Shown here piece by piece: positions 27,440-45,737 of a stretch of 64,000 nucleotides of DNA (within the stretch, counting starts at the first letter, position 1; each line of letters starts with the position of its first letter). Location of the stretch: NCBI RefSeq assembly GCF_000376845.1, contig NZ_AQXY01000021.1, positions 1-64,000 of the forward strand. The letters are read 5' to 3'. Made by a program: the position numbers and the translations under genes. A model generated the notes under the pieces. It did not search any database. It was not told the DNA's origin and saw nothing but the letters and a program-made list of their open reading frames with translations. Source of the stretch: Thioalkalivibrio sp. ALE14 (GTDB taxonomy: Bacteria > Pseudomonadota > Gammaproteobacteria > Ectothiorhodospirales > Ectothiorhodospiraceae).

Positions 27440-28294
27440 ATGAGCAAGATCGACCCCTGGCTGGCGCGCTTGTCGCACCTGCTGCCCCAGCACGCCCTTT
27501 CGCGCGTCGTGCACCGACTGGCGCGCATCGAGTCGCCGCACCTGCAACCGCTGCTGCGCGCCTTCGTACGCCGCTTCGGCCTGAACCTGGACGAGGCCGC
27601 CGAGCCGGATCTGGCCGCCTACCCCAGCTTCAACGCCCTGTTCACCCGGGCCCTGCGCGACGACGCGCGACCACTGGAGGGAGACGCAAATACATTGGTC
27701 AGCCCGGCCGATTCCCGGGTCAGCGCCGCCGGGCGCATCGAGGCTGGCCAGATCTTCCAGGCCAAGGGGCATCACTACACGGTCCGGGAGCTGCTGGGCG
27801 GGGAGGACGAGCTGGCGGAGGCCTTCCGCCATGGGCACTTCGTGACCCTGTACCTGTCACCGCGCCATTACCACCGGCTGCATATGCCGCTGGCCGGCAC
27901 CCTGACCCACATGATTCACGTACCCGGCCGGCTGTTCTCGGTGGCCCCACGTATCGTGCGCCACGTGCCGCGGCTGTATGCCCGCAACGAACGGGTCATC
28001 GCCTGCTTCGACACCCCGGTGGGGCCGATGGCCATGGCCCTGATCGGCGCCCAGAACGTCGGTTCCATCGAGACCGTCTGGGCCGGGGAGGTCACCCCGC
28101 CGCGCGGGCGCGAAATCAGCGTGAGCGAATACCCCGACCGGGCCATCACGCTGGAGCGCGGCGCGGAGATGGGGCGCTTCAACCTGGGCTCGTCGGTCGT
28201 GCTGCTGCTGCCGGAACACCCGCTGAAGCTTGCGGACCACCTGACGCCCGAGACCGAGGTCCAGGTCCGCTCCGCACTCGGCCAGTTCTACTGA
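27440..28294 (+). CDS. psd: Phosphatidylserine decarboxylase, proenzyme
   Basis: Psd makes phosphatidylethanolamine from phosphatidylserine at the inner membrane. The 284 residues match the E. coli type. FVTLYLSPRHYHRLHMPLAG carries the conserved histidines, and the C-terminal self-cleavage site is FNLGSSVVLLL, where cleavage between Gly and Ser gives the pyruvoyl prosthetic group. It is a single plus-strand gene, divergent from prmB and convergent with the DUF3581-like gene. A second, odd Psd-like protein is encoded beside pssA at 41546-42220. Confidence 0.96.
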   Translation: MSKIDPWLARLSHLLPQHALSRVVHRLARIESPHLQPLLRAFVRRFGLNLDEAAEPDLAAYPSFNALFTRALRDDARPLEGDANTLVSPADSRVSAAGRIEAGQIFQAKGHHYTVRELLGGEDELAEAFRHGHFVTLYLSPRHYHRLHMPLAGTLTHMIHVPGRLFSVAPRIVRHVPRLYARNERVIACFDTPVGPMAMALIGAQNVGSIETVWAGEVTPPRGREISVSEYPDRAITLERGAEMGRFNLGSSVVLLLPEHPLKLADHLTPETEVQVRSALGQFY

Positions 28295-39395: not shown

Positions 39396-39875
39396 TCAGG
39401 CGCCGGCGGGTGCGGCGCAGCGACGCGTCAGCACCCAGGCATCCTCGCGGCCGCTGGGAAGCGGGTAATAGCGGGGCCGCGTACCGATATGCTCGAAGCC
39501 CTCGGAGCGGTACAGCTGGACCGCGGCCACATTGGACGGGCGCACCTCGAGAAACAGGGCCTCGGCATCCTGATCGCAGACATAGTCGAACAGGCGCCGG
39601 ACCATGAATCGGCCGAGCCCGTTACCCTGCCAGCGCGGATCCACGGTCAGGTTGAGCAAATGCGCCTCGCCAGCGGCGACGGTGAGCACGCTGTGACCCA
39701 CCTGGCGCCCGTCCACCTCGAGGATCCAGCAGTCATAGCCCACGCGGATGCAGTCCTCGAAGATCCGGGCGGTCCACGGGTAGTCATAGGCCTCGCGCTC
39801 GATACGCATCACGCCCTCCACATCGACCGACTCCATGCGGCGCAACTCGGGCTGGACGCGGGGTTCGGCACTCAT
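39396..39875 (-). CDS. rimI: Ribosomal-protein-S18-alanine N-acetyltransferase RimI
   Basis: RimI acetylates the N terminus of ribosomal protein S18. The 159 residues carry the GNAT core: acetyl-CoA loop DPRWQGNGLGRFMVRRL and C-terminal EVRPSNVAAVQLYRSEGFEH. These and the opening REAYDYPWTARIFEDCIRVG match RimI well. In many gammaproteobacteria rimI is linked to tsaB or a uracil-DNA glycosylase; here the glycosylase gene is 107 bases downstream in the order of transcription reversed (upstream on the map). Confidence 0.9.
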   Translation of the reverse strand: MSAEPRVQPELRRMESVDVEGVMRIEREAYDYPWTARIFEDCIRVGYDCWILEVDGRQVGHSVLTVAAGEAHLLNLTVDPRWQGNGLGRFMVRRLFDYVCDQDAEALFLEVRPSNVAAVQLYRSEGFEHIGTRPRYYPLPSGREDAWVLTRRCAAPAGA

Positions 39876-39982
39876 GACGCGGGCTTCTCCGGCAGCAGTG
39901 AAGGGACGAGGGACGAACGGTTCCTGTGGTGTGGGAGCCCGCCGATGCCGCGCGGGTTCCCATTTCCACAGTATTTTTCAGG

Positions 39983-40720
39983 CTATGTCAGGCAGGCACG
40001 GGCCCGTTGCAGATCCTGCCAGGCCCGCGCCTTGTCGGCCGGCTTTCGCAGCAGGTAGGCCGGATGGTAGGTCACGACCAGCGGCACGCCCTGATAGCGA
40101 TGATCCCCACCGCGCATGCGCCCGAGTGGCTCATCCGAGGCAAGCAGGCTCTGGGCCGCGACCCGCCCCAGGGCGACGATCACCTCCGGCTGGATCAGGG
40201 CAATCTGGCGGTCGAGGTAGGCGCGGCAGGCTGCCGATTCCTCCGGTTTCGGATCGCGGTTCCCCGGGGGGCGGCACTTCAGCACGTTGGCAATAAATAC
40301 GTCGTGATGGCGGTCCAGGCCCAGTGCCAGCAGCATGTTGTCCAGCAACTGCCCGGCCCGGCCGACGAAGGGCTCCCCACGCCGATCCTCCTCCGCACCC
40401 GGAGCCTCGCCGATGAACAGCCAGCGGGCCTTGCGATCCCCGACGCCAAACACGGTCTGCGTGCGCTCGCACGCCAGTTCGGCGCAGGCCTGGCAGCCGC
40501 GTACGCGCGTCTCCAGGGCCTCCCAGTCCAGTGTCTCGACCGCAACACCCTGCGCCCCACTGCCGGCATCCACCCACTCGGCCACCGCTTCGGGGGCTGG
40601 CGCGGCGGCCCCGGTTTCGCTAAAGGACGTTTCGGCATCCGGGGCGGGCGCGAGGCGCGACCGCCATACCGGTATGCCCATGTCCGCGAGGATGCGGCGC
40701 TGGCGCACCGACAGCGTCAC
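39983..40720 (-). CDS. Family 4 uracil-DNA glycosylase (Fe-S)
   Basis: This enzyme removes uracil from DNA. The 245 residues have the family-4 features: [20 protein letters not shown] (active-site and uracil-binding loop), GNRDPKP, and YHPAYLLR near the end. Four cysteines suit a 4Fe-4S cluster: C-x2-C in GCQACAEL, then [10 protein letters not shown] and, 15 residues on, AACR. The preferred start is the GTG at 40720, just after the pssA stop, giving [24 protein letters not shown] 24 bases earlier overlaps pssA and is possible. Confidence 0.9.
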
Positions 40721-40724
40721 GCGG

Positions 40725-41549
40725 CTATTCCCCGGTGGGCGCACGGCGACGATGGCGGCGCCAGCGCTCCAGTGTCAGCAGCGGGCCGGACAGGGCATAG
40801 ATCACGAAGCCCGCCAGCAGGACCTTGGGCGGGTCCAGCGCCAGCAGCATCAGCGCCACCACCACCCCGACAATCGCCAGGAAAGGTACCCGGTGCTTGA
40901 AGTCCATGTCCTTGAAGCTGAAGTAGGTCAGGTTGCTGACCATCGCCGCACCCGAGAGCACGGTCACCACCAGGATGCCAACCACGTACGGATCGGCGAG
41001 CTCCGTGGGGATCCCCCAGTCCTCCAGCACCCAGACCATGCCCACCAGGATCGCGGCGCTGGCGGGGCTCGGCAGCCCCTGGAAGAAGCGCTTGTCGCTA
41101 ACCGCGAGGCGGCTGTTGAAGCGCGCCAGGCGCAGCGCGGCGGCAGTGGCGAAGAAGAAGGCCGCCACCCAGCCGAAATTGCCCAGGTCGTGCAGTTGCC
41201 ACAGGTAGACGATCAGCGCTGGCGCGACACCGAACGAGACCAGGTCCGACAGCGAATCGTACTGCGCGCCGAACTCGCTCTGGGTATCGGTCATGCGGGC
41301 GACTCGCCCGTCCAGGGTATCCAGCACCATGGCCACGAAGATCGCGATGGCGGCGGTGATGTATTCGCCGTTGATCGCGGAGACGATGGCGAAGAACCCG
41401 GAGAACAGCACCCCGGTGGTGAACAGGTTGGGCAGCAGGAACACACCACGCCGGCGGCGGCGATGCGGTGGCTGGTCGTCCGCCACGGTATCCTCGCCCT
41501 CGATGTAGTCCGGCTCGGACGGCCGGTCGCCTTCGTCCCCTGCGCTCAT
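40725..41549 (-). CDS. pssA: CDP-diacylglycerol-serine O-phosphatidyltransferase PssA (membrane type)
   Basis: PssA makes phosphatidylserine from CDP-diacylglycerol and serine, the step before Psd. The 274 residues have about seven hydrophobic segments and the CDP-alcohol transferase motif [20 protein letters not shown] with its spaced aspartates (D-G-x2-A-R-x8-G-x3-D-x3-D). An acidic then arginine-rich N-terminal tail precedes the first helix. The start at 41549 overlaps the stop of the psd-like gene by four bases. This is the Bacillus/archaeal-type integral membrane enzyme, not the E. coli phospholipase-D-type PssA. Confidence 0.93.
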
Positions 41550-42220
41550 TGCAGCATCTCCACGGTCCCCTCGCTTTCCCCGGTGGCTTCGGACTCCGGC
41601 AACCCGCCCAGCAGGGCAGATCCGGCCAGCACGCGCTGGCCCGGCTCGACCATGACCTGCGAGCCCGCCGGAAGCCACACCTCGAAGGTACCACCAAAGC
41701 CGGCGAACCCCATGCGCTTGCCGCGTCCGAGACGGTTGCCCGGAACGTTGTTCTGCATGCGGATCATGCGCGGCCAGTGATCGACACTGAGGGCCAGCGT
41801 CAGCCGCGTGCCCTCGTCGGTCTCCAGCGCATAGGCCAGGCGGCCCGCCAGCTGGGCGTCCGGGGGTTCGTCGGTCTCCTTGCCGGGCCAGACCCGTTCG
41901 TGGATCTCGGCCTCCTGCGGGGCATGCACGTTGTATTCGCCCAGCCGCCGCTGGCGCAGGCGGATGCAGACCGCCGGCTTCTGCGTGAACGGGTCACGGG
42001 CCTCGGAGATCGACTCGATGGTGCCATCGGCCGGGGCGATCACGCCCAGGGCTGGTGCCGGGGCCTTGCGCCGCATATCGCGGAACAGCGCCATCAGGAA
42101 CACGGTGAGGATCACCATGAACAGGCCCAGCTCCGCCTCCCCGACCAGCAAGGTGACGACCGCCATCCACGCGGCGATGATCACGAACAGGCGACCCTCG
42201 GGGGCTAGCGGAAACAGCAT
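41546..42220 (-). CDS. Psd2-type phosphatidylserine decarboxylase homologue lacking the cleavage serine
   Basis: The 224-residue product resembles the short phosphatidylserine decarboxylases often paired with pssA. It has an N-terminal membrane region of two helices (about 10-45), PADGTIESI, then [20 protein letters not shown] and [20 protein letters not shown]. In the family the last block is normally FGS, where Gly-Ser cleavage creates the pyruvoyl cofactor. Here the Ser is Gly177 (codon GGT), so self-processing should not occur. The gene is translationally coupled to pssA. It could be inactive, regulatory, or use another mechanism. A canonical psd lies at 27440-28294. Confidence 0.78.
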
Positions 42221-42281: not shown

Positions 42282-43860
<1,579 letters not shown>

Positions 43861-43882: not shown

Positions 43883-45601
43883 TCAGACCAGGATCATTTC
43901 GTTCTGGCCGGCACCGGCCGGGATCATCGGATAGACGTTCTCGGACTGGTCGGTGATGAAGTCCAGGAAGACCAGGCGCTCCTTCTGCGCCAGGGCCTCC
44001 TTGATCGCACCCTCGACATCCCCGGGCTGGGTAACCTGGATACCGACGTGGCCGTAGGCCTCGGCCAGCTTCACGAAGTCCGGCAGGGCGTCCATGTAGG
44101 ACATGGCGTAGCGGCCCTGGTAGAAGAACTCCTGCCACTGGCGGACCATGCCCAGATAGCGGTTGTTCAGGTTCAGGATCTTCAGCGGCAGCTGGTACTG
44201 GAAGCAGGTGGACAGCTCCTGGATACACATCTGGATACTGGCCTCGCCGGTGATGCAGCCCACGGTCGCGTCCGGATGCGCGAACTGCACGCCCATCGCG
44301 AACGGCAGACCGACGCCCATCGTGCCCAGGCCACCGGAATTGATCCAGCGGTTGGGCTTGTCGAAGCGATAGAACTGCGCGGCCCACATCTGGTGCTGGC
44401 CGACATCGGAAGTCACGTAGGCATCGCCCTCGGTCAGCTCCCAGAACTTCTGTACCACGTACTGCGGCTTGATCAGTTCGGAGGTCTGGTCGTACTTCAG
44501 GCAGTCCTGCGCCTGCCATTCCTCGATTTGCTTCCACCAGGTCGCCAGGGCCTCGGCATCCGGCTTGCCGCCGTTCTCGTTGAGCCCCTTGATCAACTCG
44601 CGCAGTACCGGCTCCACCTCGCCGACGATCGGCACGTCCACCTTCACGTTCTTGGAGATGGAGGACGGATCCACGTCCACATGCACGATCTTCGCGTGCG
44701 GGCAGAACTTCTCGATGTTGCCGGTCACCCGGTCATCGAAGCGCGCGCCGATGGCGATCAGCACGTCGGCGTGGTGCATGGCCATGTTGGCCTCGTAGGT
44801 CCCGTGCATGCCCAGCATGCCGAGGTACTGCTTGTCCGACGCCGGATAGCCGCCCAGCCCCATCAGGGTATTGGTGATCGGATAGCCCAGCTGGCGGGTG
44901 AACTCGGTCAGCGCCTCGGAGCCCCTGCCCAGGATTACGCCACCACCGGTGTAGATCATCGGCTGCTTGGCCGACAGGATCAGCTCCACCGCCTTGCGAA
45001 TCTGGCCGGTGTGTCCCTTCGTGGTCGGGTTGTAGGAGCGCATGTGGATGCTCTCCGGGTACTCGAACTCGCAGCTGTCGGCGGTCACGTCCTTCGGGAT
45101 GTCCACCACCACCGGGCCGGGGCGCCCGGTGGTCGCCACGTAGAAGGCCTTCTTGATCGTGGTCGCCAGGTCCTTCACGTCCTTGACCAGGAAGTTGTGC
45201 TTCACGCAGGGACGGGTGATCCCCACGGTATCAACCTCCTGGAAGGCATCGTTGCCGATCAGGCTGGTCGGCACCTGGCCGGTGAACACCACCAGCGGCA
45301 CCGAATCCATGTAGGCGTCGGCAATGCCGGTGATCGCGTTGGTCGCGCCGGGACCGGAGGTCACCAGCGCCACGCCGGGCTTGTCCGAGGACTTTGCGTA
45401 GCCCTCGGCCGCGTGTACCGCGCCCTGCTCGTGACGCACCAGTACGTGGGAGACCTTGTCCTGCCGGTACAGCGCATCGTAGATGTGCAGTACCGCGCCG
45501 CCGGGATAACCGAATACGACCTCGACACCCTCGGCCTGCAGGCTGCGGCAGAAGATTTCGGCGCCGGTGATGGCGGTGGAGGAACTTGCGGTCTCGGACA
45601 T
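43883..45601 (-). CDS. ilvB: Acetolactate synthase large subunit (biosynthetic, AHAS III-like)
   Basis: This thiamine-diphosphate enzyme condenses pyruvate with pyruvate or 2-ketobutyrate, starting branched-chain amino-acid synthesis. The 572 residues include the ThDP glutamate region VFGYPGGAVLHIYDALYRQD, RHEQGAVHAAEGYAKSS and the C-terminal Mg-ThDP motif ITGEASIQM ... NLNNRYLGM, where the usual Asp of GDGS is Glu, a variant seen in other gammaproteobacteria. The start at 45601 has AAGGA upstream. It leads the operon; a possible -10 (TATTTT) lies near 45665. Confidence 0.97.
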   Translation of the reverse strand: MSETASSSTAITGAEIFCRSLQAEGVEVVFGYPGGAVLHIYDALYRQDKVSHVLVRHEQGAVHAAEGYAKSSDKPGVALVTSGPGATNAITGIADAYMDSVPLVVFTGQVPTSLIGNDAFQEVDTVGITRPCVKHNFLVKDVKDLATTIKKAFYVATTGRPGPVVVDIPKDVTADSCEFEYPESIHMRSYNPTTKGHTGQIRKAVELILSAKQPMIYTGGGVILGRGSEALTEFTRQLGYPITNTLMGLGGYPASDKQYLGMLGMHGTYEANMAMHHADVLIAIGARFDDRVTGNIEKFCPHAKIVHVDVDPSSISKNVKVDVPIVGEVEPVLRELIKGLNENGGKPDAEALATWWKQIEEWQAQDCLKYDQTSELIKPQYVVQKFWELTEGDAYVTSDVGQHQMWAAQFYRFDKPNRWINSGGLGTMGVGLPFAMGVQFAHPDATVGCITGEASIQMCIQELSTCFQYQLPLKILNLNNRYLGMVRQWQEFFYQGRYAMSYMDALPDFVKLAEAYGHVGIQVTQPGDVEGAIKEALAQKERLVFLDFITDQSENVYPMIPAGAGQNEMILV

Positions 45602-45737
45602 GATGGTCGACTTCCTTACCGGGGGCTTGTGCACGATCGTCAGGCGATCACACACCACGAATCAAAATAGCCCACCATCCTAATATGAAATCGCCCCCAT
45701 TTCACGCCATAAAGCGGATGGGCACGCGGCAGACGTC

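Follow-up and report, generated by a model that had tools for sequence, protein, structure and literature searches.

The gene under study lies on the reverse strand of the window, by which we mean the whole 64,000-nucleotide stretch of Thioalkalivibrio sp. ALE14 DNA that was analysed, at 41,546-42,220. Its open reading frame, Pfam and NCBIfam matches and structure model mark the product as an apparent pseudoenzyme, a degenerate homologue of the short-type phosphatidylserine (PS) decarboxylase (Psd) with a predicted N-terminal membrane hairpin (helices 7-25 and 29-45) followed by a beta domain. Upstream on the same strand, and identified by family matches, are ilvB/ilvI for the large subunit of acetolactate synthase (43,883-45,658), ilvN/ilvH for its small subunit (43,366-43,860) and ilvC (42,282-43,463 as a listed open reading frame, the true start being probably more internal). 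Downstream is pssA (40,725-41,549), of the CDP-alcohol phosphatidyltransferase type by sequence and by its Pfam and NCBIfam matches. The psd-like frame is intact, as the original prediction had it, running without interruption for 224 residues from an ATG at 42,220 to a TGA at 41,548-41,546, and this stop shares a four-base ATGA overlap with the pssA start codon at 41,549. The overlap behind the translational coupling to pssA that had been pointed out is genuine in this genome, but since such an overlap occurs in only 14 of the 86 class-level loci having a pssA match, it is lineage-specific and no feature of the family. Following pssA on the same strand, uracil-DNA-glycosylase-like and rimI-like genes (39,396-40,744) are found in Thioalkalivibrio and at many other surveyed loci.

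The genome has one other Psd, the canonical E. coli-type enzyme already noted at 27,440, which occupies 27,440-28,294 of the forward strand, reads NLGSSVV at its cleavage site, scores above the TIGR00163 cut-off and is likely the working decarboxylase. It belongs to the same superfamily as the psd-like protein and shares the position of E. coli Asp90 with it, but it has a working LGSS site and an HxxH motif and is distant in sequence. The closer kinship is with the short-type bacterial Psd (PRK05305/TIGR00164 group, PF02666) of ilvC-psd-pssA operons in other Pseudomonadota, with which the psd-like protein shares its fold, the predicted hairpin, the FRDPxR that follows it, the Asp of PxDG and the gene's place between ilvC and pssA. 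A PF02666 match of 39.3 bits (cut-off 22) reflects this kinship in sequence, whereas the best NCBIfam short-Psd model, NF003680, gives 81.5 bits and misses by far its equivalog cut-off of 262. The protein is 94% identical to its counterpart in Thioalkalivibrio strain ALE31.

What had drawn attention to this protein was a Gly in place of the pyruvoyl-forming Ser, and both alignment and structure comparison bear this out. An eleven-residue stretch of the window protein aligns to FIRFGSRVDVY of intact short Psds, placing Gly177 at the Ser site (Ser254 in E. coli); its GGT codon is at 41,692-41,690, and not at about 41,698-41,700 as was first given. In the structure comparison, the alignment to the beta chain of E. 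coli Psd runs as far as its residue 252, which faces model residue 175; extending it would bring model residues 176 and 177 opposite E. coli Gly253 and Ser254. A sequencing error as the source of Gly177 was rejected because the identical Gly recurs at eleven other loci, giving 12 of the 30 order-level loci with the window included. The remaining order-level loci have Leu (7), Ala (5), His (2), Arg (2) or Ser (2), and eight further loci of the order all have Arg. Across the 92 members of the degenerate clade described below, the site is occupied by Gly in 25, Arg in 23, Ala in 20, Ser in 12, Cys in 6 and other residues in 6. Thus the alignment check that had been proposed, whether Gly is fixed among relatives, came out negative; the trait that relatives have in common is freedom from Ser. 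The twelve clade members that keep the Ser have lost the triad His, and could conceivably still self-cleave.

The second catalytic element is altered as well. The VHxNRxP of intact short Psds reads EYNVHAP in the window protein, with Tyr96 (computed codon position 41,933-41,935) at the site of the conserved His and His99 at the next Arg, which match E. coli His144 and His147 respectively on the strength of the motif rather than of a residue-level structural alignment. In E. coli Psd, Ser254 is activated mainly by His144, a member of the triad (PMC7952604), while for Plasmodium Psd the triad role is assigned to the second His of the pair and decarboxylation to the first (PMC10172927). The original prediction of a retained histidine region is consequently half right at best: the triad His is lost, and a His is present at the second position, where most clade members have Arg, like intact short Psds. 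The His site is Tyr or Phe in 80 of the 92 degenerate members and remains His in 2; the His is present in all 36 intact members, for the 14 gammaproteobacterial ones by definition and for the 22 outgroup ones independently. The triad Asp (E. coli Asp90) is retained as Asp65 in APADG.

To the loss of the cleavage Ser and triad His is added the loss of most of the substrate signature. Scored over 66 substrate/core positions drawn from the 22 non-gammaproteobacterial Psds, the 14 intact gammaproteobacterial members reach 0.80-0.92 and the 92 degenerate members 0.27-0.55, without overlap, the window protein scoring 0.44. Among the elements lost are the YxxGxFxNAA...NER stretch and QxAGLxARRI. A simple PS-binding or sensor role is less likely because this signature has gone too. 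The clade has its own constant residues, set apart from those of the short-type Psd. Glu103 (41,912-41,914) and Asp135-Glu136 (41,813-41,818; both positions computed) are present in 92/92 degenerate members and occur all three together in 3 of 36 intact members. Also gained were Arg163 and Gly165 (91/92 each) and Leu58 (88/92), along with three residues at which the window protein differs: Asp138 (83/92; Thr in the window), Gln166 (81/92; Arg) and His209 (74/92; Glu). Plain decay does not leave a pattern of this kind. We conclude that members of the clade are very probably unable to decarboxylate PS. Because they match Psd family models, their genes can readily be taken for a second Psd, but to annotate the protein as a phosphatidylserine decarboxylase would be wrong, the defining Ser and triad His having both been looked for and found absent.

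An AlphaFold2 model built from 38 sequences (mean pLDDT 85.9, falling below 50 at residues 212-224) gave Z-scores of 8.0-9.2 against the E. coli Psd chains, all alignments stopping at model residue 175. PTS EIIA-Glc ranked above these (Z 11.9-13.8 over residues 43-209); the probable reason is that in the solved structures Psd is split into chains at its cleavage site, and we took the EIIA-Glc match as mere likeness of fold and not as identity. A Foldseek search of the PDB returned no match at E ≤ 0.001, with LytM domains as its top rows, and the A2 profile found chance matches only among PDB sequences. The Psd fold thus appears in the model to be kept as a single chain, and a new domain is not indicated.

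We used surveys of the order, the class and the phylum to place the gene. In the order it is found in 39 of 47 genomes, and in 37 of 38 good ones; 38 of the 39 matches (all save that of genome G001) entered the order-level reading. A profile of 21 order-level sequences matched 96 of 276 gammaproteobacterial genomes, intact members included, of which 94 were tabulated; the other two are G210, a partial match, and G151, where a contig end truncates a gene of intact type (FGS, VHSNR) and an E. coli-type Psd is lacking. The 94 class loci comprise 14 intact genes (Ser and His both present) and 80 degenerate ones (67 with neither, 11 with Ser only, 2 with His only). A 'quick' tree of 128 proteins, built after removal of the three trait columns and supported by SH-aLRT only, has a branch of SH-aLRT 100 that separates all 92 degenerate rows, 80 of them from the class sample and 12 from the order and from named loci, from the rest. 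A minimum of 12 changes in the presence of Ser is counted on this tree, along with 36 in the residue at its site and 3 in the His. The degenerate form is spread over 45 family codes and the intact form over 8, with none common to both. We infer that the degenerate genes form one ancient, class-wide lineage of a single origin. The original picture of a non-catalytic Psd paralogue beside pssA is therefore supported, and its neighbourhood proves conserved, but it describes no local paralogue.

The state of the short-type gene is strongly associated with the E. coli-type Psd. A TIGR00163 search found the latter in 241 of the 276 class genomes, absence meaning that a genome is missing from the list of matching genomes. 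It occurs in 0 of 14 genomes with an intact gene and 76 of 80 with a degenerate one (Fisher p = 1.8e-13, calculated with shared ancestry ignored), an association that amounts to few independent events because a single split in the tree accounts for both labels. The four genomes with a degenerate gene and no E. coli-type Psd are drafts of 150 to 410 contigs, with no further Psd to be found by a PF02666 search; either contigs are missing or phosphatidylethanolamine (PE) is not made this way.

The operon ilvB-ilvN-ilvC-psd-pssA is common to intact and degenerate members. Among the 80 degenerate loci, ilvC lies upstream in 77, pssA downstream in 76 and both flank the gene in 74, as they do in 10 of the 14 intact loci; since intact genes are found in this place too, the position is inherited, and adjacency to pssA is by itself no proof of a new tie. 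Purifying selection, which had been presumed from the state of the gene, is evident across 13 Thioalkalivibrio genomes in a median dN/dS of 0.154 (78 of 78 pairs, 222 codons), and of 0.119 among the eight closest. Untrimmed frames from the same 13 genomes gave 0.113 for PssA, 0.074 for IlvC and 0.160 for the uracil-DNA-glycosylase gene. We also examined covariation of evolutionary rates over 72 loci, finding a partial distance correlation of 0.40 between the degenerate protein and PssA, given IlvC and IlvN (0 of 500 permutations reached this value), compared with 0.28 for IlvN and 0.16 for IlvC. This covariation is modest, and shared ancestry is handled solely through the two control genes. 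Of 202 fetched loci, 192 have a pssA match, and none of these shows a psd-pssA fusion; the fusions suggested by some long open frames were rejected as stop-to-stop spans. PssA in general does not depend on the psd-like gene, since 247 of the 276 class genomes have a TIGR00473 match above the cut-off and the degenerate gene was read in only 80.

One clade, with invariant residues of its own and a dN/dS of about 0.15, marks an ancient pseudoenzyme lineage under selection. Judged from its sequence, the psd-like protein is very probably dead as a pyruvoyl decarboxylase, and we are nearly as confident that its gene is selected for another function. Whether that function is exercised on PssA is finely balanced, position, inheritance and rate covariation being what points to it, and we give the same even weighting to the explanation as a whole: an ancient clade of dead Psd paralogues in Gammaproteobacteria, serving as a non-catalytic subunit or regulator of PssA. 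In the sequences of the degenerate clade the triad His has given way to Tyr or Phe, the Ser site has been released from constraint and the substrate signature has worn away, with other positions becoming invariant. Under this explanation, catalysis would have been lost where PS decarboxylation was already the task of an E. coli-type Psd. The protein would remain an uncleaved single chain, anchored in the inner membrane through the helical hairpin at its N-terminus, and could stabilise or place the co-expressed PssA, or tune its PS output for the separate Psd, through contacts at a putative surface around Glu103, Asp135-Glu136 and Arg163. A bolder form, in which a class-wide pseudo-Psd of single origin is a dedicated regulator of PS and PE synthesis, controlling PssA through a putative new acidic site formed by these same residues of the uncleaved chain, is more tentative still.

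The conserved acidic residues lend themselves to another reading, namely that the protein was neofunctionalised around a ligand or catalytic site of its own (Glu103, Asp135, Glu136 and Arg163), with no direct link to PssA and a place in the operon owed to inheritance. Invariance in every degenerate member of residues rarely found together in intact Psds is more like a site than a scaffold, and the old substrate signature is gone; however, no metal or cofactor motif is recognised in the protein, the place between ilvC and pssA has been kept at 74 of 80 loci, and rates covary most with PssA, which leaves this reading rather unlikely. Less probable again is a partnership with the E. coli-type Psd, in which the dead paralogue binds that enzyme or hands PS over to it and so regulates decarboxylation. 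Such a role would account for the co-occurrence in 76 of 80 genomes and has a precedent in the dead paralogue of another pyruvoyl enzyme (PMC5201418), but the two Psds are only distantly related in sequence, their genes are unlinked (lying some 13 kb from each other on opposite strands of the window), four of the 80 genomes lack the supposed partner, and the paralogue is missing from most genomes that have it (241 of 276 with TIGR00163 against 80 degenerate genes).

A functionless, decaying relic kept for polarity or translation of pssA could explain free drift at the cleavage site and the gene's absence from many lineages (with intact members counted, 96 of 276 genomes have a match). It sits poorly with the low dN/dS, with residues invariant in 92/92 yet foreign to intact Psds, with the spread over 45 family codes and 37/38 retention in the order, and with an ATGA overlap confined to some lineages, and we consider it very improbable. 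Least credible is a still-active pyruvoyl-type enzyme with a different nucleophile, or an artefactual Gly. Thr178 does directly follow Gly177, as Thr follows Ser in LGST, but it is found at 15 of the 30 order-level loci, close relatives having Ile or Arg instead, so we rejected it as the nucleophile. A cleavage Ser at another position, which would have undone the original prediction, was likewise rejected, there being past residue 50 no Ser common to more than 21 of the 30 loci; the recurrence of the Gly and the loss of the triad His tell against this reading too.

A regulator or subunit of PssA thus remains our preferred reading, and it has a parallel in the trypanosome AdoMetDC prozyme, a dead, uncleaved paralogue, retained in the genome, that activates the pyruvoyl enzyme AdoMetDC (PMC5201418). 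The prozyme belongs to an unrelated family, is known only in trypanosomatids and has a proven partner (PMC5201418), whereas the loss of activity and of cleavage here is predicted from sequence and the partnership with PssA is deduced. We found no earlier description of a degenerate psd clade in the open-access papers searched. The replacement pattern, an intact short Psd alone as against a degenerate short Psd together with a long one, offers a clean natural record of an enzyme freed from catalysis and yet kept. To our knowledge, how PE levels are set in bacteria with the integral-membrane type of PssA is an open question, and the degenerate clade is a testable candidate for such control. For a large share of Gammaproteobacteria this would, if true, add a new regulator of PssA, at which lipid is committed to PE.

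Outside Gammaproteobacteria, 29 further loci of the phylum sample all retain both Ser and His; this reading took in, of another 121 matching genomes, only G385 and those within L206-L225. In the homologue of G385, which is of another class of the same phylum, the cleavage site is RLGGWCDLYIP and Gly occupies the Ser column, perhaps marking an independent degenerate lineage; three other genomes of the same family code (f182) gave weak matches too. In another class, three genomes that also have an intact short Psd carry second, weaker Psd-like matches. Finally, an intact short Psd-PssA-methyltransferase set is plasmid-borne in two marine alphaproteobacteria, on the megaplasmid of Ruegeria sp. 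TM1040 and on pMaD2 of Marinovum algicola.
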